NCBI RefSeq assembly: GCF_013387455.1
Contig: NZ_VWNC01000001.1
Span: 496,001-560,000, forward strand
Reading direction: 5' to 3'
Length of the DNA stretch: 64,000 nucleotides
Source of the DNA: Mariprofundus sp. NF
Lineage (GTDB): Bacteria > Pseudomonadota > Zetaproteobacteria > Mariprofundales > Mariprofundaceae
Part shown: positions 7,594 to 64,000 of the stretch, one piece after another
Position numbering within the stretch: position 1 is the first letter of the stretch
Layout: the number at the start of each line of letters is the position of its first letter
Translations under genes and position numbers: made by a program
Notes under the pieces: generated by a model
What the model was told of the DNA's origin: nothing
Database searches by the model: none
The model's input: only the letters and a program-made list of their open reading frames with translations

Positions 7594-8163
7594 GTGCTGT
7601 ATAAGTACAGGGGAATAAAAGAATTTCGCTACTTCGTTGATATTGTGCTGAACAAGCGGTTTTATGCGGCACCGTATTTTGATCTTAATGACCCTATGGA
7701 AGGGCACTACTTATATAACTCTGGTGAGCTTGATTCTGATGTAAGGGATCTCATAAAGAGTCAAAAAGAAAAGCTTCGGATTTGTTCTTTGTCAAAGGTG
7801 GCAGATAATGAACTAATGTGGTCTCACTATGCAGAAGGACATCGAGGCGTTGCAATTGGGGTGACGGTTAATGAAAGCAAGCACGCAGTTGTTCCAGTTG
7901 ATTATGATGGCCCACTACAAATAGAGCGGGTTGGTATTCATAACGCTACAGCTCAAGAGATTTTATCCCACAAGTTGAAGGTATGGTCTTATGAGGAGGA
8001 GGTGCGTGTTTTTATTCGGAATAAGCAGTATGTAGATGTCAAAGTGGAAGAAGTCCTGTTGGGTCGCAGTATGAGCAAGCAAGATATTGGTTTTATTAAA
8101 AAGCTCATTGCTAGTGTTGATGAAAGCATTGAAGTGAAGGGTGCTTCCAGTAAATACGATTGA
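7594..8163 (+). CDS. DUF2971 family protein
   Basis: A 189-residue protein with the DUF2971 signature: YKYRG near the start, LNDPMEGH (about 30), LMWSHYAEGHRGVAIG (about 73-88) and KVWSYEEEVRVF (about 129-140). The biochemical role of the family is not known to me. DUF2971 genes are often found in accessory islands next to defence genes. The GTG at 7594 is chosen because AGGGGAGG lies five bases before it. It follows the ATPase gene by 72 bases on the same strand, so it may be a fourth cistron or an independent cargo gene. Confidence 0.82.
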   Translation: MLYKYRGIKEFRYFVDIVLNKRFYAAPYFDLNDPMEGHYLYNSGELDSDVRDLIKSQKEKLRICSLSKVADNELMWSHYAEGHRGVAIGVTVNESKHAVVPVDYDGPLQIERVGIHNATAQEILSHKLKVWSYEEEVRVFIRNKQYVDVKVEEVLLGRSMSKQDIGFIKKLIASVDESIEVKGASSKYD

Positions 8164-8172
8164 TTGAGGAGA

Positions 8173-8463
8173 TTAGGCCGCCATCAATATTTTCAACTCG
8201 TCATCAGTCAGGGGGTTTTCGAGAACCATTCTGATTTCAAATTCATACCAGCCAACAGATCTTATGCTGCGACCAACCTTTTCGGGATAATAGTCCAATT
8301 TTATGCCGCGATACCATGTTGATTTAGATACTCCGACTAGGCGCAACACCTCAGGTAGGCGCACGATGCGTAAATCCTCGATCGGACGGCCTTCAGTGAT
8401 TCTTTGTTTGGTTTGAAATAACATAGTGTGGCAGATGTTACTGTTCTGATTTTTCGATACCAA
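8173..8463 (-). CDS. AlpA-like excisionase/regulator
   Basis: A 96-residue DNA-binding protein. IVRLPEVLRLVGVSKSTWYR followed by YPEKVGRSIRSVGWYEFEI is the MerR-type helix-turn-helix of the AlpA family. These proteins regulate or assist excision of prophage-like and integrative elements. The TTG at 8463 has AAGG five bases upstream; an ATG at 8424 would give 83 residues and keep the whole DNA-binding domain, so the start is open. It is the last gene before the tRNA-derived attachment site, facing into the island, which supports the mobile-element reading. No integrase is visible in the window. Confidence 0.8.
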   Translation of the reverse strand: MVSKNQNSNICHTMLFQTKQRITEGRPIEDLRIVRLPEVLRLVGVSKSTWYRGIKLDYYPEKVGRSIRSVGWYEFEIRMVLENPLTDDELKILMAA

Positions 8464-8596
8464 ACCAACCTTGTATCTAATAGGATAGGTTGATATCTTT
8501 TTAACATATCAAAAGCACGGTATAAATGACGGTATTTTTGAGACTAAATATAAGGGTGTTTTCTGATCCTTTGGTATTTATAGGTTTTATTGGTTG

Positions 8597-8619
8597 TTCG
8601 AGTCCTGCTCAGGGAGCCA
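8597..8619 (+). other. tRNA 3'-end fragment, probable attachment site of the island
   Basis: TTCGAGTCCTGCTCAGGGAG plus CCA reads as the T-loop, T-stem 3' strand, acceptor 3' strand, G discriminator and CCA of a tRNA. The bases upstream do not complete a T stem or any other tRNA arm. It resembles the 3' end of bacterial tRNA-Asn. A lone 3' fragment next to an alpA gene is what integration into a tRNA gene leaves at the far end of the element. Confidence 0.75.
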
Positions 8620-8624
8620 TATAC

Positions 8625-8653
8625 AAAGGCCGGCAATTTGCCGGCCTTTTTTT
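8625..8653 (+). terminator. Rho-independent terminator
   Basis: AAAGGCCGGC pairs with GCCGGCCTTT around an AATTT loop, and the 3' side runs into seven T residues. It lies six bases after the tRNA-like CCA, so it is probably the native terminator of the tRNA gene that served as integration target. Confidence 0.9.
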
Positions 8654-8825
8654 CTCTACTGCGGATTATATTGAAACTGGCTCTATGGTGAGTCGTTACA
8701 TGTCATTGTTTTTTCAATCATGATGGTTTTAAGCCGCTCTGTTAATTTGCATTTGTTCTCAGGTTTGCTTGGCCAGTATCACCGCTCTGTTGTGAAATAA
8801 TTCACACTGTTCTCGCATACTTTTA

Positions 8826-8975
8826 CCTAGGATTTTCGCCTAGACGCAGTGATGGGGCTGCGTGGCTCTGAATCAATGACCTGACCGTGGAGACGCGGAC
8901 AGGATTTATTCTTCAATAGCCGTAATATATAACGGTTTTATAAGGTGTTTGCTTGCTTGATAATGGGCGGGCAAG
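8826..8975 (+). promoter_or_regulatory. Hairpin-rich leader before the exopolysaccharide operon
   Basis: The gap 8654-9056 holds no gene. Within it are several short inverted repeats: CTAGG/CCTAG (8827-8843), ACGCAG/CTGCGT (8844-8863), CCTGACCG/CGGACAGG with one A-A mismatch (8880-8903) and CTTGC/GCAAG (8952-8975). They could fold as a structured 5' leader. I find no match to known riboswitch cores, and the promoter is not identifiable. Confidence 0.4.
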
Positions 8976-9056
8976 AGGCTACTGTACGTTCGTTAGATTT
9001 CTGTATTGACGGGAAGCAGGCAGATCTATTTTTTTATGCAGCATGGGACGGGAACT

Positions 9057-11510: not shown

Positions 11511-11518
11511 TTTGAGGT

Positions 11519-13588
11519 ATGAGCCAGCCGGAAGCGGGCGCTAAACCTCGCATTGGTGAACTGCTGGTGGGCCGTGGGCTCATCAGCAGTGACCAGTTGC
11601 AGGAGGCGCTTGATCAGCAGCAGGCGGAGGGCGGAAGGCTAGGAGATATCCTGCTTTCCCGTCGCGCCATCACAACTGTCGCATTTTATGATGCCCTGAC
11701 AGATCATTTCCGTCGTGGACGGATCGGTGACCTGCTGCTTGAAAGAGAGTTGATCAGTGAGTATCAGCTTCAGGAGATTCTTGAGACCCAGAAACAGTGG
11801 GGCACCCGCTTTGGTGATATTATTCTGGCCAAGGGGTGGGTGAAGCCCTTCTTCCTGAGTCAGGTGTTGGCTGATCACTTTGATAAACCGAACATCGATA
11901 TGATCAAAAACAGGCTGGATCCGAGTATTCTCGACCGTGACAGCCTCTCTACCTATTCAGAAAACCTGTTTGTGCCGTGGCGCAGAGAGAATGGGCTGCT
12001 GAAGGTGGCAGTGGTTGATGTAACCCCTGAGCTACTGCAGATCGTGGATCGCGTGGTTGGTGAGCCGTTTGATTTTGTTATCACTTCAAAATTTGACATT
12101 ATCTGGACACTGCAGGAGATCGGAAATCAGTTCTATACGGAAAAAGCGGTGCATGAGCTTGCCAATATTATGCCGCAGTTCTCCGCCAGTGAGGTGTTCA
12201 CGCCTAAGCAGCTGATCTTTGCCTTTGTCTGGATGACCCTGAGTGTGGCTGCCCTGACGCTCTGGCCGATTAACTCCATCATCGCCTTGAATCTGGCGAT
12301 CTCAGTCTTCCTGCTGCTTAACTTTGCCCTGCGTATGGTCTTGACCTGGGTGGGCGGTGATCAGTATTTTGATAATCTGGTAACCGATGAAGAGGTGAAC
12401 GCGATAGATGAACGGACGCTGCCGGTCTATTCGATCCTGCTGCCGATGTACCATGAGTCAGCAACACTTCCGCATATCGCGCAGGCACTTCGTTCCCTCG
12501 ATTATCCGCTCTCCAAGCTCGATATTAAATTGATTCTTGAGCAGGATGATGATGAAACCATTGAGACTGCGAAAGATCTCGGTCTTGAGGGTATCTTTGA
12601 GATTATCCGTGTGCCGGAGTCATTCCCGAGAACAAAGCCCAAAGCGTGTAACTATGCCCTGCACTTCTGCCGGGGAGAGCTTGCCACCATTTATGATGGT
12701 GAGGATGCACCGGAACCGGATCAGCTGAAAAAGGTTGTGATCGCTTTCCAGAAAGCACCAAAGAATACTGCGGTGATTCAGGCCAGATTGAACTACTTCA
12801 ACGTGGCAGAGAACTGGTTGACCCGCATGTTTACCATGGAGTACTCCCTCTGGTTTGATTTCTACCTGCCAGCTCTGGATGCGCTGCGTATTCCTATTCC
12901 GCTTGGCGGTACCTCCAACCACTTTAAGATGGATGTACTGCGTGAAATGCAGGGCTGGGATCCCTATAATGTAACTGAGGATTGCGATCTTGGTGTACGA
13001 CTGACGCAGCGCTTCTATCGTGTGGGTGTTGTGAACTCGACCACCTATGAAGAGGCCAATAACTCGATTCCTAACTGGATTCGCCAGCGCTCCCGCTGGT
13101 TGAAAGGTTATATGCAGAGCTATCTGGTGCATATGCGTGCGCCACTAAAGCTCTATGGCGAGTTAGGCCATATCGGTTTCTGGGGTTTTCAGTTCTTTAT
13201 TGGTGGAACGATTGTGAGTGCGCTGGTTACCCCGATTCTGTTCTTAATGTATATCCTCTGGCTGATTACGCAGACGATGGTGTTTGATCCCTATTTCCCA
13301 TCTATCGTGCTCTACATTAATCTGTTTAATCTGCTTATTGCCAATGGCTTCCTGATCTATCTGTTTATGCTCAGTGGCTTCAAGCGCAGATATTTTGACC
13401 TGATTCCATGGGCTCTAACCGTACCTTTCTACTGGATTTTGCAGTCATGGGCCGGGTACAAAGGGCTCTGGCAGTTGATTCATAACCCGTTCTACTGGGA
13501 GAAAACCCATCACGGTCTGACAACATTCGAAGTGTCTCATGATAAGGATGAAGGGGCGCCAACGCATGCGCCGGGACCTGCCAAATGA
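11519..13588 (+). CDS. Processive family-2 glycosyltransferase with N-terminal MshEN repeats
   Basis: A 689-residue inner-membrane synthase. The first 140 residues hold four RxGxxL half-repeats (RIGELL, RLGDIL, RIGDLL, RFGDII), the pattern of GspE-N/MshEN domains, which bind c-di-GMP in several proteins. Two membrane helices follow (about 232-270). The catalytic domain has EQDDDE (about 340), YDGEDAPEP (391), TEDCDLG (485) and QRSRW (522), as in cellulose and NfrB-type synthases, and then C-terminal membrane helices. It probably polymerises an exopolysaccharide from nucleotide sugars under c-di-GMP control. The product is unknown. It overlaps the next gene by four bases. Confidence 0.88.
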   Translation: MSQPEAGAKPRIGELLVGRGLISSDQLQEALDQQQAEGGRLGDILLSRRAITTVAFYDALTDHFRRGRIGDLLLERELISEYQLQEILETQKQWGTRFGDIILAKGWVKPFFLSQVLADHFDKPNIDMIKNRLDPSILDRDSLSTYSENLFVPWRRENGLLKVAVVDVTPELLQIVDRVVGEPFDFVITSKFDIIWTLQEIGNQFYTEKAVHELANIMPQFSASEVFTPKQLIFAFVWMTLSVAALTLWPINSIIALNLAISVFLLLNFALRMVLTWVGGDQYFDNLVTDEEVNAIDERTLPVYSILLPMYHESATLPHIAQALRSLDYPLSKLDIKLILEQDDDETIETAKDLGLEGIFEIIRVPESFPRTKPKACNYALHFCRGELATIYDGEDAPEPDQLKKVVIAFQKAPKNTAVIQARLNYFNVAENWLTRMFTMEYSLWFDFYLPALDALRIPIPLGGTSNHFKMDVLREMQGWDPYNVTEDCDLGVRLTQRFYRVGVVNSTTYEEANNSIPNWIRQRSRWLKGYMQSYLVHMRAPLKLYGELGHIGFWGFQFFIGGTIVSALVTPILFLMYILWLITQTMVFDPYFPSIVLYINLFNLLIANGFLIYLFMLSGFKRRYFDLIPWALTVPFYWILQSWAGYKGLWQLIHNPFYWEKTHHGLTTFEVSHDKDEGAPTHAPGPAK

Positions 13589-15084
13589 GTGCTGAAAGCA
13601 ATCGGACAGGCTTGGAAGGGCAGCTGTTCCTTGCCTTAATGACCATTATTCTCGCGGGCATGACGATCTGGATTTTATCCAATGGATTTATGCTCGATTC
13701 AGCGACTATTCGCTGGACGCGTGTGGTCAGTGCGCTGGATGCCGAGCATATTATGGTAGAGAACCTCTCTTTCCTGATGCCGCATCTGCCGCTCTATCTG
13801 CTTATTCCTTTCTATTATATTCCCGGTCTGGCCACAGGTGCGGCGCCATACCTGCTTTCGCTACTGGTCGCTATTTATCTGCTGCACCTGTGGGCGAAGA
13901 ATCTGAAAGAGGTGGAGCTCAGTGAGCACAGGCTGGTAATTCTTGGGCTTTTGGTGGTGCTTCACCCCGCCTTTCTCTGGAGTGCAACCGCAGGTAGTCA
14001 TATTGCACTGAGTATGCTCGCTTTTTATCTGCTTTACCGTGCCGCTCAACATATTATTTCTGACCATGATCTGCACTCCTACATCTCACTTGCTGTTGTG
14101 TTTGTCTTCTACTTCTTTATCGATGGCTCAGCGATCTTCATCTTCGTTGCACTGATCCCCCTGCTGGTGGTGATTGCACCTATTCGAACCATCATGGTAT
14201 CACCGATGAGTCTCTATCTGATTGTGGGAACCCCTTTTGCCTTCGCACTGTTCAGTTGGGCCTATTTGAACTGGATTTTTGAAGGTTCATTTACCAACTT
14301 TATTACCGATGCCGATTCAGATTTCCTGGGTGGTATGCTGCATGTTTTCGATTATCCCTGGCTTCTCGATTATGGCGGGCAGTTCTTCATGCCGCTGCTG
14401 GCCGCTACCGGATACCTGCTCATTGCATTCCCTGTATCGGTATATCTGCTGCTGGATACCATCAACAACAGTTATCGATTCCGCGCCTCTTTCGTGCTGC
14501 TGCTGCATCCCCTGATCGCTATTGCCATTGCCACCAGTCAATATTATCTGACCCACCCGTTTGAGATTCTGACACTGGTGAGTGCGGGTCTGATGGCTGA
14601 GCTTACCTATGTGAAGATGCAGACCAAACGTGAGTTTGTATTCCTCGTTATTTTCATGATGGTCAGTGTGGTTGGTGGCTGGTGGCTGTTTATCGAGACA
14701 GCCAGCCCGCAGATGGCGCAGTGGGTACAGGCTTTAAAGGGTGAAGAGTTGCACACGGCTGAAACTGATAGCGATCTTCAGCTGGGCCTGTGGCTGAAAG
14801 AGCATCGTCAAACGACTATGATGTATGAGCGCAGTGCTTTCAGGGTGATTGCTGCCAGAGGCGATGCTAAAGGGCTGGTGCTCTCTTTTTCACATGACTT
14901 TAAAGCAGCTATGCGATCAAGGATTCCGGATGTGGAACAGATTGCTGTACCAGAACCTGATTCTCTTATCGGGCGCAGGGACTGGCTGAATATCAGGCAT
15001 CCGAATCTTTACAGTTACGGTATGAAGGGGTTCGATCTGGTATACGATTATATGGGATGGCGGGTTTACCGTAAGCATGGTTAA
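13585..15084 (+). CDS. Polytopic membrane protein of the exopolysaccharide operon
   Basis: A 499-residue protein with about ten hydrophobic segments across residues 10-390 and a soluble C-terminal domain of about 110 residues. I recognise no catalytic motif. The topology resembles glycosyltransferase-C-like or polymerase-type membrane proteins of polysaccharide clusters. It starts at an ATG within the ATGA overlap with the synthase gene and ends eight bases inside the next gene. It is therefore tightly coupled and likely part of the same export or synthesis machine. Confidence 0.7.
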   Translation: MSAESNRTGLEGQLFLALMTIILAGMTIWILSNGFMLDSATIRWTRVVSALDAEHIMVENLSFLMPHLPLYLLIPFYYIPGLATGAAPYLLSLLVAIYLLHLWAKNLKEVELSEHRLVILGLLVVLHPAFLWSATAGSHIALSMLAFYLLYRAAQHIISDHDLHSYISLAVVFVFYFFIDGSAIFIFVALIPLLVVIAPIRTIMVSPMSLYLIVGTPFAFALFSWAYLNWIFEGSFTNFITDADSDFLGGMLHVFDYPWLLDYGGQFFMPLLAATGYLLIAFPVSVYLLLDTINNSYRFRASFVLLLHPLIAIAIATSQYYLTHPFEILTLVSAGLMAELTYVKMQTKREFVFLVIFMMVSVVGGWWLFIETASPQMAQWVQALKGEELHTAETDSDLQLGLWLKEHRQTTMMYERSAFRVIAARGDAKGLVLSFSHDFKAAMRSRIPDVEQIAVPEPDSLIGRRDWLNIRHPNLYSYGMKGFDLVYDYMGWRVYRKHG

Positions 15085-16081
15085 TTCTGTTGTGAAATGG
15101 AGCCTGTTGGCTGTGGTAGTGGTACTTCTTGCGGGTTGTGCCAGTGAAGCGCTGATCCAGAACAAGAGTATGAAACGCGGTTTCAATGCACTGCAGCATG
15201 AGAGTGTGCCGTGGGACAAACCTGAGGCCAGAAAATCGATCAGCAGGCTTGCATCACTTGGCGCCAATGCGGTTGTGTTTATCTCTTTTATGGAGCAGGA
15301 GAGACCTGATTCACAGCAGGTTAGACGCTCTAATGCTGTGACGATGCATCAGCTTAAAAAAGCAATCTCTTATGCACGTGCTCACAAGCTGCATGTGACA
15401 CTGAAACCGCAGATGCTGGTGCGTGGCTCATGGGCGGGTGAGATCAATCATCGTAGCGCTTATGAGTGGGATCTCTGGTTTAACAACTACTCCAGAGAGA
15501 TCATTGAGTATGCCATCTTTGCCCAACAGCAGGGTGTGGATGCATTTGTTATCGGCACTGAACTTGCCAAAGCATCGGCGCATGTGAATTGGCCCCGGCT
15601 GATAAGTCAGTTGCGCCGGGTATTCCGCGGTCAGCTGACCTATGCGGCGCATAATGCCGAGGGAGTGAGGGCTTTTCCTAGCTGGAATATGCTCGATGCA
15701 GTTTCGCTGACCTTCTATCCATCGCTTGGAGTCAGCAGCAAACGGGCCTCGATGCAGGCACGCGTGGATGTTGCCGTTGAGGAGTTGCGTCTTGCTGCAG
15801 CTGCAATAAATCGGCCATTGTGGGTCATGGAAGTGGGCATCCCTTCTGCTCAGGGCGCGTCAGAAAAACCCTGGGAGTGGCAAAGCTTAAAGCATAGCAG
15901 GGTGGATTTGGCACTTCAGAGTGAAGTGCTTGATATCTGGTTGAGGGCACTGGATCAACCGTGGGTTGATGGCGTGTATATCTGGGCGTGGTACAGCAAT
16001 GCTCGTGCCGGAGGCCAACGCGATACTGATTACACACCGCAGAATAAACCTGCGGAAGATGTGATCGGGCGTTACTGGTGA
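15077..16081 (+). CDS. Glycoside hydrolase-like lipoprotein
   Basis: A 334-residue lipoprotein: the lipobox LLAGC lies near residue 20. The mature part looks like a TIM-barrel glycosidase related to the GH113 type, with acidic residues in FVIGTELAK (about 158) and WVMEVGIPS (about 253) at the positions expected for the acid/base and nucleophile. Many exopolysaccharide operons carry a periplasmic glycosidase that trims or releases the polymer, like BcsZ for cellulose. The start overlaps the preceding gene by eight bases. The family call rests on motif spacing and is moderate. Confidence 0.7.
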   Translation: MVNSVVKWSLLAVVVVLLAGCASEALIQNKSMKRGFNALQHESVPWDKPEARKSISRLASLGANAVVFISFMEQERPDSQQVRRSNAVTMHQLKKAISYARAHKLHVTLKPQMLVRGSWAGEINHRSAYEWDLWFNNYSREIIEYAIFAQQQGVDAFVIGTELAKASAHVNWPRLISQLRRVFRGQLTYAAHNAEGVRAFPSWNMLDAVSLTFYPSLGVSSKRASMQARVDVAVEELRLAAAAINRPLWVMEVGIPSAQGASEKPWEWQSLKHSRVDLALQSEVLDIWLRALDQPWVDGVYIWAWYSNARAGGQRDTDYTPQNKPAEDVIGRYW

Positions 16082-16092
16082 GGGGTAAAGTG

Positions 16093-17052
16093 ATGGATTT
16101 ATTAAACTTTAGAAAAATAGTGATTCAAACTGTTATGGCAGTGCTGTTTGGCATCGGTTTAACTACCACTGCTTTTGCCGGTGTTGGCATTCTTGAGGAG
16201 GATGAGAACTCTATCTCTGCATCCCTCTCGTTTTCAGGCAGTAACAAACAGTGGGATAGTAACAGGAATGTGCTGACCTCAATCTGTAAGCGACGCAATG
16301 TCGATCTCTCTCTCGGATATGAGTACGGCTGGTCCTATTTTCACACTGTCTATAGCAGTGTGAATCTGGCTTATCGCAAGTGTGGCGTGGGTAGTGTTCG
16401 TACTGCTATTCCAGGAGCGCCTGCCGGTTTCACGGTAAGCAACCAGTACGCATCTGGCAGGTCCTGGGGTTTGGGTGATGTCGAACTGGGTATCCGTACC
16501 CGCTTTGGTGGGAACTATCTTAATAATGCCGCATGGGAAACCTTTATGATTATTCCTACCGGCTATGATAACAACAGCCCCTCTGCACTTGGCCGGGGAG
16601 CTCTTGGTGTCGGTCTCGGTTTGATTTTCTCATCAGATGCATCTGACAGATATCCTAATAAGTGGGGATACAGTCATAAGAAGTGGGGTTGGAAGGCGGG
16701 TAGTAAATTCACCTACTTCTTCTCCTCCAAAGGTAATTCACTCTCTACATTTGCGGCAGTTCAGTATGCCTTCACAGCCAGTGACTTTGAGCAGACGGGT
16801 GATTATTTAGAGTTCCGCATTGATAACTCCATCGGCTTTCAGAATGGTGGCGTTCAGCAGCAGGTCTTTATTAATCAGGCACCAACGGCCATGACCAGCT
16901 CTGATCAGACCTCGTTCAAGATAAAATACAGCCACGCCTTTATCGGTACGGGCTGGTCGGGAAGTATCAGCCTTGGCCACGCCTTCTTTGGTCGTAATGC
17001 AGCAAAATCCACCTCTATTGCAGCCGGTGCAAACTACCGGTGGAGAGACTAA
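16093..17052 (+). CDS. Outer-membrane beta-barrel-like protein
   Basis: A 319-residue protein with a signal peptide (MAVLFGIGLTTTAFA-G) and alternating polar/aromatic strands rich in Gly, Ser, Tyr and Trp, for example VDLSLGYEYGWSYFHTVYSS. It ends in a strand with a near-terminal aromatic residue (ANYRWRD). This fits an outer-membrane barrel, perhaps the exit pore or a surface anchor for the polymer. ATG 16093 is chosen over GTG 16078 because AGGGG sits seven bases before it. I cannot assign a named family. Confidence 0.65.
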   Translation: MDLLNFRKIVIQTVMAVLFGIGLTTTAFAGVGILEEDENSISASLSFSGSNKQWDSNRNVLTSICKRRNVDLSLGYEYGWSYFHTVYSSVNLAYRKCGVGSVRTAIPGAPAGFTVSNQYASGRSWGLGDVELGIRTRFGGNYLNNAAWETFMIIPTGYDNNSPSALGRGALGVGLGLIFSSDASDRYPNKWGYSHKKWGWKAGSKFTYFFSSKGNSLSTFAAVQYAFTASDFEQTGDYLEFRIDNSIGFQNGGVQQQVFINQAPTAMTSSDQTSFKIKYSHAFIGTGWSGSISLGHAFFGRNAAKSTSIAAGANYRWRD

Positions 17053-17055
17053 ACA

Positions 17056-20000
17056 ATGATTAAAACGGTAACCCTTGTTCGCCTGCTGGCGCTGTCATGT
17101 GTGACGGCAGCCAGTGCTGTTGCGTTTGCAGCAGAGGGGGATGTTTACCGTTTAATGGATGATTCCAACCTTCGTCAGGGCCCTGATAGCTCTTATGCAG
17201 CAGCAGCGATGGCTCATAAGGGTGATGAGGCGGTTGAGCTGAGTAGAAGTAGTCGGTGGGTGCATGTTCGTATGCAGGATGGTTCAACAGGCTGGTTATA
17301 CAACGCCTCACTGCAGCCGATTGCCACTGCTACAACGTCAGTTTCACCCATCCAGAAACCTGCTGCGGTTCAAATTTCTGATCAGAAGAAAACGTTGGTC
17401 GTAAGTGAAGTTCAACCACTCACTGGAGAGCAGAAGACGACTGCCGTTAAACCTGTGAAACCAGCGGAACATCGCCCAGTGATCAAACAGGGCGAAGTCT
17501 CCGAAGCATTTGTACTCAATGGCTATGGCGCTGTTTCTGAAAAAGAAGAAACAACAGCAGTACCAGCTAAAACAGTTGCTCAGTCCAAGCCTGTGGTTGT
17601 AAGTGAAGTTCAACCAGCAGAGCAGCAGGCGGCTATCGTTAAACCTGTGAAACCAGCAGAACATCGCCCAGTGATCAAGCAGGGTGAAGTGGCCGAAGCG
17701 TTTGTGCTCAACGGTTATGGTTCTCTGCCAGCAGCTGAAGTTAAACCGGTTGTCATGCCTGAGAAGCGTGTTGATGAAATGCCGGTGGTAAAAGCTGAAG
17801 AGCCTGTGGTTTGGCAGCTCTCTCCAGAATCCACAACAGAGTCTGATTCCCGGACAGCCACTGCATCAACACAACAGCCTGTCGTGACAGATAAAGAACC
17901 GGTGTCGCCTGTTTCCGTGGCGGTTAAGGACGAGCTGGCAGATGTTCCGACATCTGTTGAGGCTAAGGAGCAAGTTGTTGTCGTTGAATCAACTGCAGGC
18001 ACGACTGGTGTAATAGAGTCATATCAGATTGATTCAGAAAAACCGATTGAAAAGAGTGCTTCAGTAGTCGCGGCTGATGCAGCTACTGTTGGTATGCAAC
18101 AAGAGGGTGATGTTGCGGTTGCAGATCTACTTAAGGAAGAACCATTAGTTGAATCTGCGTCTGCTGCGAAAATAGCAGAGAAGGCAGCGACAGAGAGAGC
18201 AGCGGCAGAGAGAGCAGCGGCAGAGAGAGCAGCGGCAGAGAGAGCAGCGGCAGAGAGAGCAGCGGCAGAGAGAGCAGCGACAGAGAGAGCAGCCGATGTT
18301 CAGGTTGAGGCCACACCTTTGCTGATCAGGGACGAACCTGAGGCAACGGTTGCTGCCGTTGAAATCCAACAGGGTGAAGCGTCTCAGATTGTTCAGACAA
18401 CGACCATTCGATCAGGGCCGGGAGCACTGTTTGAAGTTCTGGGTTGGGTAGGGTCCGGCGCTGAGATTGTAACACTTGATCAGCAGGGTCACTGGTTGAA
18501 AGTACAGATGAAACAGAGTGGCCGCATCGGCTGGATTGAGGCAGAAGCCTTAAATCAGGGACCAGTGTCGGATCGGCCTGTATATGTTGCAAAAGAGAGT
18601 GTGCCTGCGTTGCCTGCTGAAGAGGTTGCCCCTTCACCACTAACGCCAGTTGTAGTCGAGATGCCAATGGCAGAAGTGAAGGCTGATCTGCAGCCAACCT
18701 CCCCGATTGCTGAGCAGGATGCGGCTAAGGACCTCTACCGCTTTGAAAAGAATGCAAATCTGCGTGCAGGCCCTGATGCCAGGTTTGATGTGGTCTCATG
18801 GGCAAGCACGGGTGCCTATGCTGTTGAGTTGGCTCGTCAGGGTAGTTGGTACCGCATGCAGATGCAGGAAAGCAAATTGATCGGCTGGGTCTACAAGAAC
18901 TCTATTGCACTTGTCCGGGCAGCAGCGCCGGTGGTTGTTGAGAGCGCGCCACAGGTGCAGGAGCAGCCTGCGATGGTTGCTGTAAAAGAATCAGCACCCG
19001 TAACAACGACTACGCCATCGGTAGCACCGATAGCTGCTCCTGCAACAGAAAAACGCTACCTGTTTGCATCTGATGCCGGACTAAGGGCAGGGCCTGGAAG
19101 TCAGTTTGATGTGGTCGCTAATGGTGCAGCCAACGAGACGGCGACCGAGATAGACCGTAAAGGAACGTGGAGCAGAGTTCGTTTGACCCTAAGTAACAAG
19201 GTGGGATGGGTTGCAAGTTCTCTTCTAACGCCACTTGTAGCGGGAGCCACAACTGTTGCAGCTGTAGCGACACCTGTTTCTGCTACAGCAGTGACTGAAC
19301 TCCCAGCTTCTGAAGTCGATCTGCAGCCCACGGTTATACCACTGAAAGCTGGTTTGGCAGAGTCTGAGCCGGTTGTTAAACCTGTTCCAGTTAAGCTGGT
19401 TGCAGATAAGAAACCACTCTTTTTCTTCAAAGAGACAAGTAAACTTAAGGCTGGCCCAGGCAATCAGTTTGATGCTGTGGCATGGGGTGCTCGCAATGAG
19501 ACCGCCAGTGAGATTGATCGCAAAGGCGACTGGTCGAGGGTTCGCCTGACACTGAGCAATAAGGTTGGCTGGATTACTAATGCGCTGCTGATTCCTGCTG
19601 AGGTGGTGACTCACACCGCATCTGCTCCTGCACTGCTGACATCGTCGACAGATATGCCGCAGGCAGGCGGCCTCTATGAGGTGATCAAAACCTCTACCTT
19701 GCGTGTTGATGCGAAAAGTAGTGCCGAGGTCAATGGCTGGATCGGAAAGAGCGAGCCTGTTGTGGTGCTTGAGCGCCGGAGCGGTTGGGCACGCGTGAAT
19801 CCGCAGGCTGCCAATAACCATGTCGGCTGGATCAAAACAGATGTATTGAAGGAGATCTCTGCTACGACTCTGACGCTGCGCGAAGGCGAACATTTCATCA
19901 GCAAGCGTAATCTGAATAACTACGCTGAAAGAGTATCACACGGCGAAACATTTAACTTCTCCTATGCTGCACTGGAACAGGCCCTCTACAGGGTGCCTGT

Positions 20001-56777: not shown

Positions 56778-56927
56778 CTACTCCTCTTCGGAAAACTTCG
56801 CTTCATCATCCAGTTCATGTTCATAGGGAAGATCCATAAAGCAGCCCAGTTCCGAGTGCGCAATATGCGGGCTCATATAGGCATAACTTCTCATTAATTT
56901 ACCAAGATCAATATCGTCATTAAACAT
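56778..56927 (-). CDS. 49-residue acidic small protein
   Basis: ATG 56927 follows AAGGAGAG, a strong ribosome site. The product has 49 residues, many acidic: MFNDDIDLGKLMRSYAYMSP opens it and a Glu/Asp-rich tail ends it. There is no membrane helix or cysteine pair. A three-unit Pho-box-like repeat lies about 80 bases upstream on the same strand. I recognise no family. Strong start signals and normal codon use make it likely real. Confidence 0.7.
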   Translation of the reverse strand: MFNDDIDLGKLMRSYAYMSPHIAHSELGCFMDLPYEHELDDEAKFSEEE

Positions 56928-57002
56928 CTCTCTCTCCTTGTTTATTTCAGCGTAGTTCTGATCGATTCCTTTTGTTGGTCAGCGTGTAGATCTATTGTGT
57001 GA

Positions 57003-57431
57003 TCATGATGACAATCGCATGACAGCGCTGTGACATGGAGGTATAGAGAGGCTGTGATGTTGATGTAGGAGTAACCTGCCCATGCCGCATTGCTCATCAA
57101 GCCCTTTACCGGAACTGTTGAAATAGAAAAAGCCGCTTACCCCTCTGTTTCTGGCCAGACGCATTACAGGTGTATTGACACCTTTGCATAGCGCATAGGT
57201 GGTCGCAGTTGGATTAGATTTTTTATACCACTCAAGCAGTGCGATGCCTCGACAACCGGGATCATCAATATCGGCGATAAATATCCCGGGCTGTAGTCTG
57301 CAGAGATTGTGAAAGCCGCTATTGGGGGGGAGGATGGTCATCTTCCAACCATGTTTATGTAAAAGTTCGCCAATCTGATGGCAGGCTTGAGATTGTTGTG
57401 CAATGATGGCGGCTTGTTTTTGTTGCTGCAT
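57003..57431 (-). CDS. Degenerate receiver-like protein
   Basis: A 142-residue protein with the hydrophobic pattern of a response-regulator receiver: QPGIFIADIDDPG holds an Asp where the acceptor would be, and ARNRGVSGFFYFNSSGKGLD follows the alpha4-beta5 pattern. The acidic pair at the N-terminus and the conserved Lys are not seen, so phosphotransfer is doubtful. ATG 57431 with AGAGGAG upstream is preferred over the longer frame from 57491. Its C-terminal codons read through the Pho-box-like repeats at 57008-57036. It is divergent from ppk1. Confidence 0.65.
   Translation of the reverse strand: MQQQKQAAIIAQQSQACHQIGELLHKHGWKMTILPPNSGFHNLCRLQPGIFIADIDDPGCRGIALLEWYKKSNPTATTYALCKGVNTPVMRLARNRGVSGFFYFNSSGKGLDEQCGMGRLLLHQHHSLSIPPCHSAVMRLSS
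57008..57036 (-). promoter_or_regulatory. Three-unit Pho-box-like repeat
   Basis: On the minus strand: ATGTCAC-AGCG-CTGTCAT-GCGA-TTGTCAT, three 7-mers with 4-base spacers. This is the 7-4-7 pattern of PhoB sites (consensus CTGTCAT). A CACAAT -10-like element follows eight bases on. The 49-residue protein gene begins 80 bases downstream. Confidence 0.65.
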
Positions 57432-57470
57432 ATGGCTTTCACTCCTCTGCAGTGATACTGACAGGTATGC

Positions 57471-57488
57471 ATGGCAACTTGATGACAA
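57471..57488 (-). promoter_or_regulatory. Pho-box-like site for the receiver-like gene
   Basis: On the minus strand TTGTCAT-CAAG-TTGCCAT has the 7-4-7 pattern of PhoB sites. It faces the receiver-like gene, whose ATG is 40 bases downstream, and stands back to back with the ppk1 site. Confidence 0.5.
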
Positions 57489-57492
57489 CAAT

Positions 57493-57526
57493 TTGTCATG
57501 GTCGTGCCATGGTCATTTGCTATGCT
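57493..57526 (+). promoter_or_regulatory. Pho-box-like promoter of ppk1
   Basis: TTGTCAT-GGTC-GTGCCAT (57493-57510) fits the PhoB 7-4-7 pattern. TATGCT at 57521-57526 lies ten bases on, the usual spacing from Pho box to -10. ppk1 starts 40 bases further. Confidence 0.6.
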
Positions 57527-57566
57527 CTGCACAACTGCAGTGAACCATCTACAGTGAGGAGATATT

Positions 57567-59654
57567 TTGAGCCAACAGCCAACTATAGAACTTGACCATA
57601 GCGACCTCTATCTGAACCGGGATATGAGCATGTTGCAGTTCAACCGGCGTGTGTTTGAGATGGCGGCCGACAGCGCATTGCCGCTGCTGGAGCGGTTGAA
57701 GTTTCTCTGTATCAGCAGCACCAATATGGATGAGTTTTTCGAAGTGCGCGTGGCAGCGCAGAAGCATCGCCTTGCCATGGGTTCACTCTCAACGGCGGCG
57801 GATGGACTGACTGCCGGTGAGATTCTCTCGCAGGTGCGTGGTCGTGTGGATGCACTGGTGGCCGATCAGTATACGCTGCTTAATGAGTCGCTACTGCCTG
57901 CACTGGAAGAGGAGAATATCCGGATTCTGCGCCGAGCTGACTGGAGTGAAGCGCAGACAGTCTGGATTCGCCGCTTCTTCCGTCGTGAACTGCTGCCTCT
58001 GCTGACCCCGATCGGGCTGGATCCGGCTCACCCCTTCCCGCGCCTGCTCAGCAAGATTCTAAATTTCGTTGTTTCGCTGGAGGGCAAGGATGCCTTTGGT
58101 CGCGAAGCTCATTACGCCATTGTGCAGGCACCGCGCTCGCTGCCGCGGGTGATCCGCTTGCCAGAGGAGATTGCCGGTGCCGGAGATCATTTTGTACTGC
58201 TCTCCTCGATCATTCATGCCCATGTCGGTGACTTTTTTCCCGGCATGGAGGCCAAAGCCTGTCATCAGTTCCGCATTACCCGAAACAGTGGCCTGCTGGT
58301 CGATGAGGAGGAGCTTGTTGATCTGAAACAGGCAGTTGCCGGTGAGTTACTGGAGCGCCGTTTCAGCAAAGAGGTACGTCTTGAGGTATCACAGCGCTGT
58401 CCGCAGGAGCTGGTTGAGTTTCTGCTAGAGCAGTTTTCACTCGCCCATCAGGATCTCTACCGCGTGGATGGATTGGTTAACCTCTATCGACTTGCAGCTA
58501 TTTATGATGAGGTCGACAGGCCCGATCTGAAATACCCGGTATTTGAGGCCGGGGTCCCGGCACAACTGCGCGATGAAGAGTTCACGATGTTCGATGTGAT
58601 TCAGCAGGGTGATCTGCTGCTCCACCACCCTTTCCAGAGCTTTGCACCGGTGGTGGAGCTGCTTAATCAGGCAGCCGCTGATCCGAATGTGCTGGTGATC
58701 AAGCAGACGATGTACCGGGTGGTGCCCGATTCGCCGTTGGTGGATGCGCTGGTACGGGCAGCGCGTGCCAACAAAGAGGTGGTGGCAGTTATCGAACTGA
58801 TGGCACGCTTTAATGAAGAGGAGAATATTGCCCTGGCCAACAAGCTCTCAGCTGCCGGTGTGCAGGTGGTCTACGGTGTGGTGGGTTATAAAACCCACTG
58901 TAAAATGCTGATGGTGGTGCGCCGTGAAGGTCGCAAACTGCGTCGGTATGTGCATCTGGGTACCGGTAATTATCACACCGTGACCAGTCGTTTCTACACC
59001 GATTTCGGGTTGCTTAGTTGTCATCCGGAACTGGGTGAGGATGTGCATAAACTGTTCCAGCAGTTGACCGGGCTTGGCAAAGCCATGCGCCTGAAAGCGA
59101 TGTTATCGGCACCGTTTACGCTGCATAAGGGTGTGATTGAGCGCATCAACCGCGAGGCGGAAACTGCGCGTAGCGGAGGCGAGGCGAGAATTCGCGCCAA
59201 GATCAACGGGCTAGAAGAGCCTGAAGTGATCAGGGCGCTCTATCGTGCCTCCCAGGCCGGTGTGAAAATTGATCTGGTTGTGCGCGGCATCTGCTGCCTG
59301 CGTCCGGGCATAACCGGGATTTCAGAAAATATCCGTGTGCGTTCGGTGCTGGGTCGTTTTCTTGAGCACACCCGTATCTACTATTTCCACAATGGTGGTG
59401 ATTCAGAGGTGTTCTGTGCCAGTGCGGACTGGATGAGCCGCAATCTGCTCAGGCGCGTGGAGACCTGTTTCCCTGTGCGCGATCCCGCCTTGAAAAAAGA
59501 GGTGATTGCTCAGGGGCTGACGCCTTACCTCTCTGATAATGCGGCAACATGGCAGCTGAAATCCGATGGCTCATATCAACGTGTGCAGAGTCGGACGCAG
59601 ATAAAAAATGCGCAGGTGATGTTGATGCAGAAACTGGGAACCTTGAAAGAGTAG
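57567..59654 (+). CDS. ppk1: Polyphosphate kinase 1
   Basis: A 695-residue enzyme that makes polyphosphate from ATP. The N-terminal domain begins YLNRDMSMLQFNRRVFE (about 12-28); ISSTNMDEFFEVR is near 50. The phospholipase-D-like catalytic part has the phosphorylated His in GYKTHCKMLMVVRREGRKL near 446 and HLGTGNYH near 468, and a second His in EHTRIYYFHNGG near 600. The TTG at 57567 has GTGAGGAG six bases upstream. It runs convergently into ppx with only three bases between the stops. Confidence 0.96.
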   Translation: MSQQPTIELDHSDLYLNRDMSMLQFNRRVFEMAADSALPLLERLKFLCISSTNMDEFFEVRVAAQKHRLAMGSLSTAADGLTAGEILSQVRGRVDALVADQYTLLNESLLPALEEENIRILRRADWSEAQTVWIRRFFRRELLPLLTPIGLDPAHPFPRLLSKILNFVVSLEGKDAFGREAHYAIVQAPRSLPRVIRLPEEIAGAGDHFVLLSSIIHAHVGDFFPGMEAKACHQFRITRNSGLLVDEEELVDLKQAVAGELLERRFSKEVRLEVSQRCPQELVEFLLEQFSLAHQDLYRVDGLVNLYRLAAIYDEVDRPDLKYPVFEAGVPAQLRDEEFTMFDVIQQGDLLLHHPFQSFAPVVELLNQAAADPNVLVIKQTMYRVVPDSPLVDALVRAARANKEVVAVIELMARFNEEENIALANKLSAAGVQVVYGVVGYKTHCKMLMVVRREGRKLRRYVHLGTGNYHTVTSRFYTDFGLLSCHPELGEDVHKLFQQLTGLGKAMRLKAMLSAPFTLHKGVIERINREAETARSGGEARIRAKINGLEEPEVIRALYRASQAGVKIDLVVRGICCLRPGITGISENIRVRSVLGRFLEHTRIYYFHNGGDSEVFCASADWMSRNLLRRVETCFPVRDPALKKEVIAQGLTPYLSDNAATWQLKSDGSYQRVQSRTQIKNAQVMLMQKLGTLKE

Positions 59655-59657
59655 GGT

Positions 59658-61211
59658 TTAACTTGGTTGTTCGAGGTCGATGTGCAGGGGCAGGCCAAAA
59701 GCTTCTCTGAAATAGTCTGCGGTCTGAAGGGCGGCCCAGCGTTCCAGCAACATATCACCACTGCCTTCGATATTCAGGGCTGCGGTCTCCGGCTCAACAT
59801 TCAAACTCAAGCGACTGATGCGGTTGCGGCGCTCCTTGTTCAGAGCGATAGCCAGTCGCAGCAGGGCACTGAGTTGCCACACCTTCAACTGGGCACTTTT
59901 AGATAGCTCTGAGAACTCCTTGTGGCTATCTGAGGGGCTGCCTTTGCGTTGATAGCGCACAAGCTGGGTGAGTATCTGTTTTTCATTATCACTTAAGCCG
60001 AGCAGCGGTGCTACCGATATGAGATAGGCGGCATGGCGGTGGTGACCGCCGACGCGCACATACATGCCGATCTCATGCACCAGGGCTGCGACCTCCAGCA
60101 GAAGTCTGTCACGATGGTGTAGGGCATGCAGTTCACGGCTCTGATCAAACAGTACCAGCGCAAGACCTGCCACCTCTTTGCCATATTTACGATCCACATG
60201 GTATTTGTTTTTCAGACTGCGTGCCCATGCAATGAGATTACGACGCTGTGAATCAAAGGTCTGCTCTTCGCTGTCCACCATATCCAGAACAATGCCATCG
60301 AGCAGGCTGGCATCAGGCATCACCATTTTCTTGGCGCCGGAGAGCTTCATAATCTCATAAAACACCATGGCAGCAGGCAGGATTACATCGGCTCGATCAG
60401 GCCTCAGCCCCAGATCACGAACACGCTCCTCAAAGCTGAGTTTGGATAGTTTTCTGATCAGTTTTTTCAGCTCTTTGCGACGGATGCAGGCTGCTGATTC
60501 AGTTCCCAGAATCTGAAAAGCCAACTCACCGATGGCAGAAGCATTGCCACCGGTTGCAATGCAGCTGTCGGCCTTGCGGCTGCCGATCTGTTCGCGAAGT
60601 TTTTTGCGTGTGCCATCGAGGTATTCAGAGAGCAGGGTGTTGAAATCACCCTCCTGACCGAGCATCTCCAGCAGGCGAACGGTGCCGATCTTAAAGCTTT
60701 GGGCACCAATCACTTCGCCATCATCACATGTGGTGACCTCAACGCTGCCGCCACCCATATCGATCAGTACCGTAAACTTATCTTCCATATCGACACGGCG
60801 GCTGATCGAGTAGTGCACCAGTCGTGCCTCCTCTTCGCCGCTGATCAGTTGAAGATCTATGTTTGTTTCATCAAAAATACGTTTGGCCAGCTCTCTGCCA
60901 TTTTTGGAGTCACGCATCGCACTGGTCGCCGTGGCGCGGTATTTCTCAATCTGGTGCTGATCAAGGATGCGGCGAAACTGCCGGAATGCCTCCAGCGCAT
61001 CTTCCATGGTCTGCGGGCTGAAGGTACCGCTGGTAAAAGCGTCATGACCAAGACGAACCGGCTCTCTGTAGCGCTGAACCAGTGTCGGCGTGCCGCTGGT
61101 ATCCTGCATGGCGATACCAAGACGCATGGCATTGGAGCCGACATCAATAGCCGCGACAAGAGCGCTGTTCTCGGGTAGTGCATCATCTGAAATAAGGCTG
61201 ACAAATTCCAT
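59658..61211 (-). CDS. ppx: Exopolyphosphatase
   Basis: A 517-residue Ppx/GppA enzyme. IDVGSNAMRLGIA near 22 and VLIDMGGGSVEVTT near 143 are the phosphate loops; an HD-like C-terminal domain shows HEIGMYVRVGGHHRHAAYL near 388. The length matches the two-domain Ppx that degrades polyphosphate from the ends. Convergent with ppk1, divergent from the first PPK2 gene. It is the second Ppx/GppA-type gene of the window; the other, at 28196, is shorter. Confidence 0.92.
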   Translation of the reverse strand: MEFVSLISDDALPENSALVAAIDVGSNAMRLGIAMQDTSGTPTLVQRYREPVRLGHDAFTSGTFSPQTMEDALEAFRQFRRILDQHQIEKYRATATSAMRDSKNGRELAKRIFDETNIDLQLISGEEEARLVHYSISRRVDMEDKFTVLIDMGGGSVEVTTCDDGEVIGAQSFKIGTVRLLEMLGQEGDFNTLLSEYLDGTRKKLREQIGSRKADSCIATGGNASAIGELAFQILGTESAACIRRKELKKLIRKLSKLSFEERVRDLGLRPDRADVILPAAMVFYEIMKLSGAKKMVMPDASLLDGIVLDMVDSEEQTFDSQRRNLIAWARSLKNKYHVDRKYGKEVAGLALVLFDQSRELHALHHRDRLLLEVAALVHEIGMYVRVGGHHRHAAYLISVAPLLGLSDNEKQILTQLVRYQRKGSPSDSHKEFSELSKSAQLKVWQLSALLRLAIALNKERRNRISRLSLNVEPETAALNIEGSGDMLLERWAALQTADYFREAFGLPLHIDLEQPS

Positions 61212-61352
61212 CTGCTTATGCTGCCGTGGTGTTTAGGAAATCGCTATCTAATTTCGGCACAGATCCATATTCCTGTGTATTAATTGTGGATTTGCAGTGT
61301 AGAATATTTCGTCCTCTGTAGATAGGGGCGACACTCTACTCAGGGAGTATGC

Positions 61353-62270
61353 ATGATGGATGCACCGTTTAATGATGAGAATCAGAATAAAGAGAGTTCA
61401 CAGCGTAGCTCAAATCCGGAGACAAGGCCTTACGATGCCTTGATCAATCAACATGGTTTTGATGATAGTAAGGTTGAGAAAATCATCACCTCCTATCTGC
61501 AGGAGCAGGAGCTTAAACCCTATCAGGCTGAGCTAATTAACCTTCAGCAACACCTTGAACAGACCAAGCAGCGCATGATTATTCTCTTTGAAGGCAGGGA
61601 TGCCGCGGGCAAAGGTGGAACCATTCGCAGTGTGACCCGTTATATGAATGAGAAGCACTATCGCGTTATTGCGCTGGGTAAGCCGACCGAAGAGCAGCGC
61701 ACGCAGTGGTTTTTCCAGAAGTATGTCTCCCAGTTTCCCCGCGGTGGAGAGATCGCGATGTTTGATCGCAGCTGGTACAACCGCGCTATGGTGGAGCCGG
61801 TGTTCGGCTTCTGCACGGATGAGGAGTATAACAACTTTATGACCGGTGTGGTCGGCTTTGAGAAGGATCTGGTGCGTCAGGGAACTATTCTGGTGAAGAT
61901 CTACTTCAGTGTGACCAAAGAGATGCAGCAGAAACGATTTGAACGTCGTAAGGATGATCCACTACGGCAGTGGAAGCTCTCCGAGGTGGATGTGCAGGCG
62001 CAGGAGCGCTGGGACGATTTTGATAAGGTGAAGTTCGAGATGCTCAAGCATACCCACACTGCAGCTGCACCGTGGACGCTTATCCGCTCTGCCAATAAAC
62101 ACCTGGCCCGCCTCAATGCCATTAAAGTGATCCTTAACGCTGTGGAGTATGAAACCAGCAATCTGGAGCTCGATTATGTGCCGGATGACACGATTGTGAT
62201 TTCCGGAGCAAGAGAGATTGAACTGATGCAGAAGGAGAGGTTGCGCAGCAAGGGGAAGAAAAAAGGGTAA
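61353..62270 (+). CDS. ppk2: Polyphosphate kinase 2, copy 1
   Basis: A 305-residue PPK2. The P-loop is FEGRDAAGKGGTIR near 80, Walker B-like MFDRSWYNRAMVEP near 140, and the lid has RRKDDPLRQWKLSEVD near 200. One-domain length and these motifs fit class I, which uses polyphosphate to phosphorylate nucleoside diphosphates. The start is ATG 61353 or 61356 after AGGGAG. A terminator follows it. Copies 2 and 3 follow with their own promoters. Confidence 0.94.
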   Translation: MMDAPFNDENQNKESSQRSSNPETRPYDALINQHGFDDSKVEKIITSYLQEQELKPYQAELINLQQHLEQTKQRMIILFEGRDAAGKGGTIRSVTRYMNEKHYRVIALGKPTEEQRTQWFFQKYVSQFPRGGEIAMFDRSWYNRAMVEPVFGFCTDEEYNNFMTGVVGFEKDLVRQGTILVKIYFSVTKEMQQKRFERRKDDPLRQWKLSEVDVQAQERWDDFDKVKFEMLKHTHTAAAPWTLIRSANKHLARLNAIKVILNAVEYETSNLELDYVPDDTIVISGAREIELMQKERLRSKGKKKG

Positions 62271-62283
62271 ATGGCCTCCTCAG

Positions 62284-62322
62284 ACAGGCAAGGGAGCGCT
62301 TGATCATACCCTTGCCTGTTTT
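62284..62322 (+). terminator. Terminator after PPK2 copy 1
   Basis: ACAGGCAAGGG and CCCTTGCCTGT form an 11-bp stem with a 14-base loop, ending in TTTT. It lies 13 bases after the stop. Confidence 0.85.
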
Positions 62323-62368
62323 ATGGTCGTGTTGTAGTAGTGATAACTGTCGGAGTGCAATTTGAGGC

Positions 62369-62396
62369 TTCAAGATTTGCTCAGGGTGTGTATAAT
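62369..62396 (+). promoter_or_regulatory. Promoter of PPK2 copy 2
   Basis: TATAAT at 62391-62396 is a perfect -10 box inside GTGTATAATGC. TTCAAG at 62369-62374 is a weak -35 with 16-base spacing. The same GTGTATAATGC block occurs before copy 3. Confidence 0.65.
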
Positions 62397-62452
62397 GCTA
62401 CCCCTCTTGCGGAACCGCTCCGCGTGAGCAATTCAACCCCTGGAGAATAATA

Positions 62453-63400
62453 ATGACTACCTTGGTTAATGCTGATTTCACCCCTAAAACAGATGAAGCT
62501 GATGGCTCAGAAGCTCAGGCCAAGTGTTATGACCGGCTGATTGAAAAAAATGAGCTTACTGATGAGAAGGTGAAGAAGGTTCTCACCAAATATCTGCAGG
62601 AGCAGGAGCTTAAACCGTTTCAGGCGGAATTGATTAATCTGCAGAAGCATCTGGAACAGACCAATCAGCGCATGATTATCCTCTTTGAGGGCAGGGATGC
62701 AGCAGGCAAGGGCGGCACCATTCGCCGTGTTACCCGTTACATGAATGAGAAACATTATCGCATCATTGCCATGGGCAAACCGACTGATGAGCAGCGCACG
62801 CAGTGGTTCTTCCAGAAATATGTCTCCCAGTTCCCACATGGTGGTGAGATCGCCATGTTTGATCGTAGCTGGTACAACCGTGCGATGGTAGAGCCGGTGT
62901 TCGGCTTCTGCAGCGATGCCGAGTATAAGAACTTCATGAAGGGTGTCGGTGGTTTTGAGAAGGATCTGGTACGTCAGGGCACCATTCTGGTGAAGATCTA
63001 CTTCAGTGTAACCAAGGATGTGCAGCAGAAGCGCTTTGATCGCCGCAAGGATGATCCACTGCGCCAGTGGAAACTCTCTGAAGTGGATGTGCAGGCGCAG
63101 GAGCGCTGGGAAGATTTTGATAAGGTGAAGTTTGAGATGCTTAGGCGCACCCATACTGCCTCAGCACCGTGGACTGTGATTCGCTCTACCGATAAACATC
63201 TGGCTCGTCTGAATGCCATCAGGGTGATCCTCAACTCAGTCGATTATGACAAAGTGAACATGGAACTTGATTATGTGCCTGATGACAATGTGGTGATTTC
63301 AGGTGCGCGTGAGATTGAGTTAATGCAGCGGGATCGCTTGCGCAGTAAGAGCAGAAACAAAGTAGCGGATGATCTGCCAGAAGCGGATCAGTCAGCATAA
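62453..63400 (+). CDS. ppk2: Polyphosphate kinase 2, copy 2
   Basis: A 315-residue paralogue of the gene before it, very similar from residue 35 on, with the same P-loop GRDAAGKGGT, Walker B MFDRSWYNRA and lid RRKDDPLRQWK. The N-terminal 30 residues and C-terminal tail (DDLPEADQSA) differ. A ribosome site GGAGAA precedes the ATG. It is flanked by its own promoter and terminator. Confidence 0.94.
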   Translation: MTTLVNADFTPKTDEADGSEAQAKCYDRLIEKNELTDEKVKKVLTKYLQEQELKPFQAELINLQKHLEQTNQRMIILFEGRDAAGKGGTIRRVTRYMNEKHYRIIAMGKPTDEQRTQWFFQKYVSQFPHGGEIAMFDRSWYNRAMVEPVFGFCSDAEYKNFMKGVGGFEKDLVRQGTILVKIYFSVTKDVQQKRFDRRKDDPLRQWKLSEVDVQAQERWEDFDKVKFEMLRRTHTASAPWTVIRSTDKHLARLNAIRVILNSVDYDKVNMELDYVPDDNVVISGAREIELMQRDRLRSKSRNKVADDLPEADQSA

Positions 63401-63405
63401 CGATC

Positions 63406-63434
63406 AAAGGGCGGTTTTTACCGCCCTTTTTTTT
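63406..63434 (+). terminator. Terminator after PPK2 copy 2
   Basis: AAAGGGCGG and CCGCCCTTT form a 9-bp stem around TTTTTA, followed by eight T residues in all. It is five bases after the stop. Confidence 0.92.
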
Positions 63435-63477
63435 ATTCACAACCTGTATGAAACAGCCACAATCGAGTTTATTCATA

Positions 63478-63505
63478 TTTCAAAGGGGCTGCTTTTGTGT
63501 ATAAT
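63478..63505 (+). promoter_or_regulatory. Promoter of PPK2 copy 3
   Basis: TATAAT at 63500-63505 in GTGTATAATGC, with TTTCAA at 63478-63483 as a weak -35 and 16-base spacing. The layout matches the promoter before copy 2. Confidence 0.65.
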
Positions 63506-63568
63506 GCCGGGTCCTTTTGGAGATGTAGCGTGTCAGAGGGAATTCAAATATTTAAGGAGTAGAAAGAG

Positions 63569-64000
63569 ATGAATCTGTTGGCAAACCCTGAGGTTACCCT
63601 GGATGAGGGCCCGGAGGTCATGCCGCAAGAAAATCCTCCCTGCTATGAACAACTCATAGAAGAGCATGGACTAAGCGACAATAAAGTAGAAAGCATCATC
63701 ACCAAATATCTGCAGGAGAGAGAGCTCAAGCCCTATCAGGCCGAGCTGATCAAACTGCAGCAACATCTTGATAAAACGAATCAACGTATGATTATTCTAT
63801 TTGAAGGCCGGGATGCAGCAGCCAAGGGCGGCACCATTCGCCGCGTTACCCGTTACATGAATGAAAAACATTACCGCATCATCGCTATGGGAAAGCCGAC
63901 CGAAGAGCAGCGTAGTCAGTGGTTCTTCCAGAAATATGTCTCCCAGTTTCCACATGGTGGCGAGGTCGTGCTGTTTGATCGCAGCTGGTACAACCGGGCC
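63569..64000 (+). CDS. ppk2: Polyphosphate kinase 2, copy 3 (partial, cut by window end)
   Basis: The first 144 codons of a third tandem PPK2. It opens MNLLANPEVTLDEGPEV, then runs parallel to the other two from about residue 25. The P-loop reads GRDAAAKGGT, with Ala replacing the Gly before Lys that copies 1 and 2 have, and the Walker B-like segment reads VVLFDRSWYNRA. The ATG at 63569 lies after AAGGAG and AAAGAG. The lid and C-terminus lie outside the window. Confidence 0.92.
   Translation, partial: MNLLANPEVTLDEGPEVMPQENPPCYEQLIEEHGLSDNKVESIITKYLQERELKPYQAELIKLQQHLDKTNQRMIILFEGRDAAAKGGTIRRVTRYMNEKHYRIIAMGKPTEEQRSQWFFQKYVSQFPHGGEVVLFDRSWYNRA

Follow-up and report, generated by a model that had tools for sequence, protein, structure and literature searches.

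The repeats between a 49-codon gene and ppk1, the gene of polyphosphate kinase 1, in Mariprofundus sp. NF are very probably PhoB-binding sites which, judging from their sequence and layout, would fire ppk1, the 49-codon gene and, more weakly, a receiver-like gene. They lie in a stretch of 64,000 nucleotides, the whole of which is called the window here (Table 1). A PHO box consists of two 7-nt direct repeats, CTGTCAT-like and 4 nt apart, with units of 11 bp (PMC4415409). The initial annotation had described a three-unit repeat, two divergent boxes and a -10-like hexamer ten bases past the ppk1 box, and all of these are present in the letters as claimed. The triple box is located within the 3′ end of the receiver-like gene, which is separated from ppk1 by a gap of 135 bp. 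The repeat units at 57471, 57482, 57493 and 57504 stand in perfect 11-bp register, two per strand. The TTG start of ppk1 is kept in most of the genus. The computed results comprise the sites with their register and conservation, the spacing of their -10 elements and the match to the genome's own phoB and pst sites.

Table 1. Genes and regulatory elements between the 49-codon gene and ppk1 (window coordinates)
Feature	Position	Strand	Details
49-codon gene, small acidic protein, pI 4.3	56778..56927	-	member of Zetaproteobacteria-specific family
Conserved block ATCACACAAT, just 3′ of triple box	56994..57003	-	six-species alignment
Receiver-like gene, 142 aa, ATG at 57431	57003..57431	-	predicted receiver fold
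Triple Pho box ATGTCAC-AGCG-CTGTCAT-GCGA-TTGTCAT of 49-codon gene	57008..57036	-	matrix 20.3 and 15.4
Possible -10 CAGTAT of receiver-like gene	57455..57460	-	weak
Pho box TTGTCAT-CAAG-TTGCCAT of receiver-like gene	57471..57488	-	matrix 12.4; divergent from ppk1 box, in 11-bp register with it
Inverted central pair ATGACAA-ATTG-TTGTCAT	57482..57499	-	links both divergent boxes; matrix 14.0
Pho box TTGTCAT-GGTC-GTGCCAT of ppk1	57493..57510	+	matrix 15.0; upstream sites in most of genus
-10 element TATGCT of ppk1	57521..57526	+	exactly ten bases past box
ppk1, polyphosphate kinase 1, 695 aa, TTG start after GAGGAG	57567..59654	+	four of four Pfam PP_kinase domains

The sites were scored with an oriented PhoB matrix of 18 positions, whose training set came from about 20 Mariprofundus genomes and consisted of the regions upstream of phoB and pstS, free of any ppk1 or small-gene data. 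The top four matches in the window are those at 57019 (20.3), 57008 (15.4), 57493 (15.0) and 57482 (14.0); an unrelated site (12.9) ranks fifth and the receiver site at 57471 (12.4) sixth, and five of the best six matches belong to the ppk1 region. The expectation for sites scoring at least 15 is 0.48 per 64 kb on both strands under a first-order Markov background. The initial annotation had proposed this comparison with background, and the region passes it with the top four matches. The training sites themselves score 15.8–25.7, so the sites with a TGCCAT half are weak members of the class. Considered by themselves, the TGCCAT sites at 57471 and 57493 do not stand out genome-wide; their position, register, -10 elements and conservation add to their weight.

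A pattern census of the 2.53-Mb genome found six exact copies of the motif TGTCAT-N5-TGTCA. One occurrence is at the 49-codon gene; the same contig carries the other five at 572–576 kb, where they precede pstS, two porin-like genes and the operon formed by a cyclic-nucleotide-binding-like gene with phoB and phoR. This census ruled out a general repeat. With up to one mismatch, the motif is found 45 times genome-wide, versus 29 in the control. These statements about the genome itself are drawn from pattern searches and selected stretches.

In the training sites of the phoB region, an xAxxxT hexamer occupies positions 11–16 past the box, with A in 21 of 25 sites and T in 22 of 25. Both TATGCT of ppk1 and CAGTAT of the receiver-like gene lie at this offset. 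The combined pattern TGYCAY-N5-TGYCAY-N9–11-YANNNT has eight matches in the genome against one for the reversed control, and seven of the eight belong to the phoB operon, the porin-like genes, the operon of the PiT transporter and three sites near ppk1; the pattern was written after the sites had been seen and is therefore descriptive, not an independent test. The predicted transcription start of the receiver-like gene overlaps its Shine–Dalgarno sequence. Downstream of the triple box, the block ATCACACAAT is invariant in the six-species alignment and is probably the promoter core, with CACAAT (56994–56999) or CAATAG (56992–56997) as the candidate -10. The -10 of this promoter is in a noncanonical register: it is either two bases off or a poor hexamer.

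A site upstream of ppk1 (score at least 14, at most 250 bp from the gene) was found in 14 of the 19 Mariprofundus genomes that had sufficient sequence ahead of the gene, versus 0 of 224 coding windows at the same loci. The corresponding figures for other genera of the family are 9 of 31 and 2 of 190, orthologous sites of related species not being independent. Five of the 19 genomes of the genus score below 14, and four of these have nothing box-like upstream of ppk1. Many of the ppk1-facing boxes elsewhere are far stronger than that of the window, with scores of 20.3 (genome G051), 20.1 (G049) and 23.5 (G020). The triple array at the small gene is conserved in six species. Genomes with the receiver-like gene (G000, G051, G054, G047, G049 and G052) have a second array at its 3′ end, ahead of the small gene; in those lacking it (G046, G050 and G057), the array of the small gene falls directly within the gap next to ppk1. 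In G046, the first 19 receiver codons are kept and are fused to the promoter region, and this stub is the remnant of an internal deletion.

These data bear on a rather unlikely alternative in which the triple box is the sole working site, serving the 49-codon gene, and the TGCCAT boxes near ppk1 are relics or poor binders. The weaker sites score 12.4–15.0, under all training scores; one-mismatch motifs are frequent across the genome; and in G046, G050 and G057, close relatives that lack the receiver-like gene, the sole strong intergenic box faces the small gene and not ppk1. Nevertheless, ppk1-facing boxes recur in other species and genera, often in a much stronger form, the TATGCT hexamer stands at the exact spacing from the ppk1 box, and all four units of the divergent array keep the 11-bp register. 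The phosphate control that the initial annotation had extended to all three genes is supported to different degrees. It is best supported for the 49-codon gene, with its conserved triple array, invariant block and paralogues preceded by Pho boxes, and is well supported for ppk1, with sites in most of the genus and in several other genera; support for the receiver-like gene is moderate only, given its score of 12.4 and a predicted start that falls on the Shine–Dalgarno sequence.

We infer actual PhoB binding and induction at the predicted sites to proceed as follows. When phosphate is scarce, PhoR, whose gene is located about 23 kb away, would phosphorylate PhoB. PhoB would then bind the 11-bp repeats head-to-tail, substituting for a -35 element, and recruit RNA polymerase to the -10 element some ten bases further on. 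The divergent array at 57471–57510 would fire ppk1 rightwards and the receiver-like gene leftwards, more weakly, and the triple array at 57008–57036 would fire the 49-codon gene. By analogy, extra PPK1 made during starvation may ready the cell for storing the flood of phosphate on recovery; such a rise would fit the finding that Caulobacter needs ppk1 for recovery when phosphate returns (PMC13250506). It is very unlikely that PhoB binds and represses, or that the sites are unresponsive to phosphate. PHO boxes with no obvious phosphate response are documented in other bacteria (PMC4415409), but the boxes described here take the place of the -35 at an activating distance from the -10, an arrangement shared with this genome's own phoB operon.

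Both phoB and phoR are encoded nearby; the best NCBIfam models for their products are PhoB and PhoR, with scores below the curated cut-offs, and the best PDB matches of the PhoB DNA-binding domain are structures of E. coli PhoB. Recognition of tandem repeats is common to regulators of the OmpR family, and genomes of this kind have several OmpR-type paralogues. Binding of the repeats by one of these other regulators is nonetheless highly improbable, since the same motif and -10 spacing are found at the genome's phoB, porin-like genes and PiT operon, with boxes also at pstS, which is a PhoB signature.

The 49-residue protein belongs to a family of its own. In at least 11 genomes, its orthologues are encoded divergently from ppk1. 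Searching with a profile of these orthologues recovered distant relatives that lie far from ppk1; with a broader profile, the family grew to about 65 members in about 48 of 78 zetaproteobacterial genomes, with none in the rest of a sample of 398 Pseudomonadota genomes. The members share the core FLKWVSERNxHIPLSDLAFLM and an acidic tail, with a median length of 57 residues and a median pI of 4.2, and a genome can contain up to four copies. In genomes G053 and G064, two family genes are arranged in tandem, about 500 bp apart (loci L210 and L212).

Family members were collected by protein similarity alone. Pho boxes were sought for the 53 whose upstream sequence was available, almost none of which is linked to ppk1. 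A box scoring at least 12 within 220 bp upstream was found for 46 of the 53, versus 8 of 471 control windows from the same loci, and at a threshold of 14 the counts are 35 of 53 and 2 of 471; these counts overstate the number of separate events, because members from related species are not independent. The xAxxxT hexamer is at offset 11 in 22 of the 37 sense-strand sites of the family, compared with 0–9 at other offsets. The second copy in the genome of the window is on contig C4 (39187–39318), and the initial motif census had already picked up its box when the copy itself had not yet been recognised. The predicted near-universal control of a class-specific small-protein family by Pho boxes is new.

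Searches of Pfam, NCBIfam and PDB gave no match for the family, and 18 members did not match the Pfam models of YtfK/DUF1107 or DUF1127. Two single-member matches in PHROGs (E 0.04–0.08) were treated as chance. The predicted structure of the 49-residue protein has a mean pLDDT of 69, which is too uncertain for a structure search. Reading the neighbours of three unlinked copies revealed no obvious common partner. It is hardly credible that the 49-codon frame is no gene and that its promoter serves a non-coding RNA or nothing: the frame is short and lacks a Pfam or NCBIfam match, but it belongs to a protein family of about 48 of 78 genomes, has a dN/dS of 0.14–0.16 and is preceded by a good ribosome site. 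By these sequence measures, the 49-codon and receiver-like frames are real genes under purifying selection (dN/dS 0.14–0.20).

The receiver-like protein is predicted to have the (βα)5 receiver fold (AlphaFold2, pLDDT 87). The best solved neighbours of the model found by Foldseek are Spo0F, ranked first, and CheY, and Pfam matches Response_reg (PF00072) below the cut-off. Among ten proteins of the family, the β3 aspartate D54 is invariant and the acidic pair after β1 is mostly lost, being replaced by QQ, QH, PK and similar residues and retained as ED in one. The Thr/Ser after β4 has become an invariant Cys82 and the Lys after β5 a near-invariant Asn105; both sit inside the family motif LCxGGNTPxMRxARxxGVDGFFYLN. 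The protein thus shares the β3 aspartate and, by prediction, the fold with the receivers CheY and Spo0F, but differs from them in the replaced acidic pair, Thr/Ser and Lys and in its sub-threshold Pfam match. Because of the three altered positions, we read it as a putative pseudo-receiver.

Across a collection of 84,980 species, this protein has relatives in Zetaproteobacteria only, the nearest being that of Mariprofundus sp. KV, and most of the genes of these relatives stand divergent to ppk1. The dN/dS is 0.17–0.20 for the receiver-like gene and 0.07 for ppk1. A spurious open reading frame was ruled out by the fold, the conservation and the dN/dS of 0.17–0.20. The pairing of a conserved, predicted pseudo-receiver with ppk1 is new.

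Placing ppk1 under Pho control follows a familiar theme, and the induction of ppk for phosphate storage has been described in many bacteria (PMC4415409). Compared with PHO-controlled ppk elsewhere, the Mariprofundus locus adds lineage-specific divergent genes for the receiver-like and small proteins, each with its own box. As in the PhoB-type Pho regulon of E. coli, 7-4-7 boxes are located beside pst, phoB and porin-like genes; the Mariprofundus motif differs in its preference for ATGTCAY, and its predicted regulon includes lineage-specific genes.

Two other small proteins offer a comparison with the 49-residue family. YtfK of E. coli is a small protein of the PhoB regulon that activates SpoT (PMC6917717). 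Like YtfK, the 49-residue family is small, lineage-restricted and, by prediction, placed under PhoB; unlike it, the family is strongly acidic and reaches up to four copies per genome, and the two do not form a common sequence family. Small DUF1127 proteins bind PhoR, and the paper that describes this mentions no Pho box (PMC12501420). They resemble the 49-residue family in staying below about 60 residues, in having short helices, in occurring several times per genome and in their tie to phosphate control, but they are arginine-rich and basic, in contrast to a median pI of 4.2, and share no Pfam match with it. As a tentative suggestion, the 49-residue protein might be a PhoB-induced post-translational modulator that binds PhoR, PhoU, PPK1 or an alarmone enzyme; an action similar to that of YtfK or DUF1127 is our conjecture, the family belonging to neither by sequence. 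In a broader and likewise somewhat doubtful proposal, these class-private, multi-copy, PhoB-driven acidic proteins might bind partners such as PhoR, PhoU, PPK1 or SpoT/RelA and thereby adjust polyphosphate synthesis or the response to phosphate; the family copy and the pseudo-receiver linked to ppk1 would then both target a single step.

Zetaproteobacteria oxidise iron in the sea, surrounded by iron oxides that bind phosphate. A literature search of a limited collection found no paper on the Pho regulon in this class. A computed Pho-box motif is now given for Zetaproteobacteria, and the predicted sites would place polyphosphate synthesis within their phosphate-starvation response. The unnamed small-protein family offers a direct entry to new small regulators of phosphate and polyphosphate metabolism.

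The locus opens a phosphate island of about 25 kb, which covers 57567–64000 of the window and 1–18227 of the adjoining stretch L031 on contig C1. The island includes ppk1, ppx, three PPK2-like genes, two Na/Pi symporter genes, DUF47-PiT, phoU-pstBACS, two porin-like genes and phoB-phoR. The DUF47-PiT operon, encoding a low-affinity phosphate transporter, has a strong Pho box at L031 5259 with a -10 of TAGTAT and a weaker one at 4787. The boxes upstream of pstS (L031 12568–12641) point away from that gene, as they do in the nearest relative, G054. In the phoB operon of several species (upstream regions L117–L135), inverted boxes TGTCAC-N5-TGACAC replace the direct repeats. The first gene of the phoB-phoR operon encodes a 170-residue cyclic-nucleotide-binding-like protein (L031 15788–17055; C1 575788–577055) with relatives in 19 of 23 Mariprofundus genomes, and its presence there hints at cross-talk of phosphate with another signal. 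At the other end of the window, near-identical copies of CTGGCACTTTGCTGGCAT recur between 1868 and 2336 at a regular spacing of about 113 bp.
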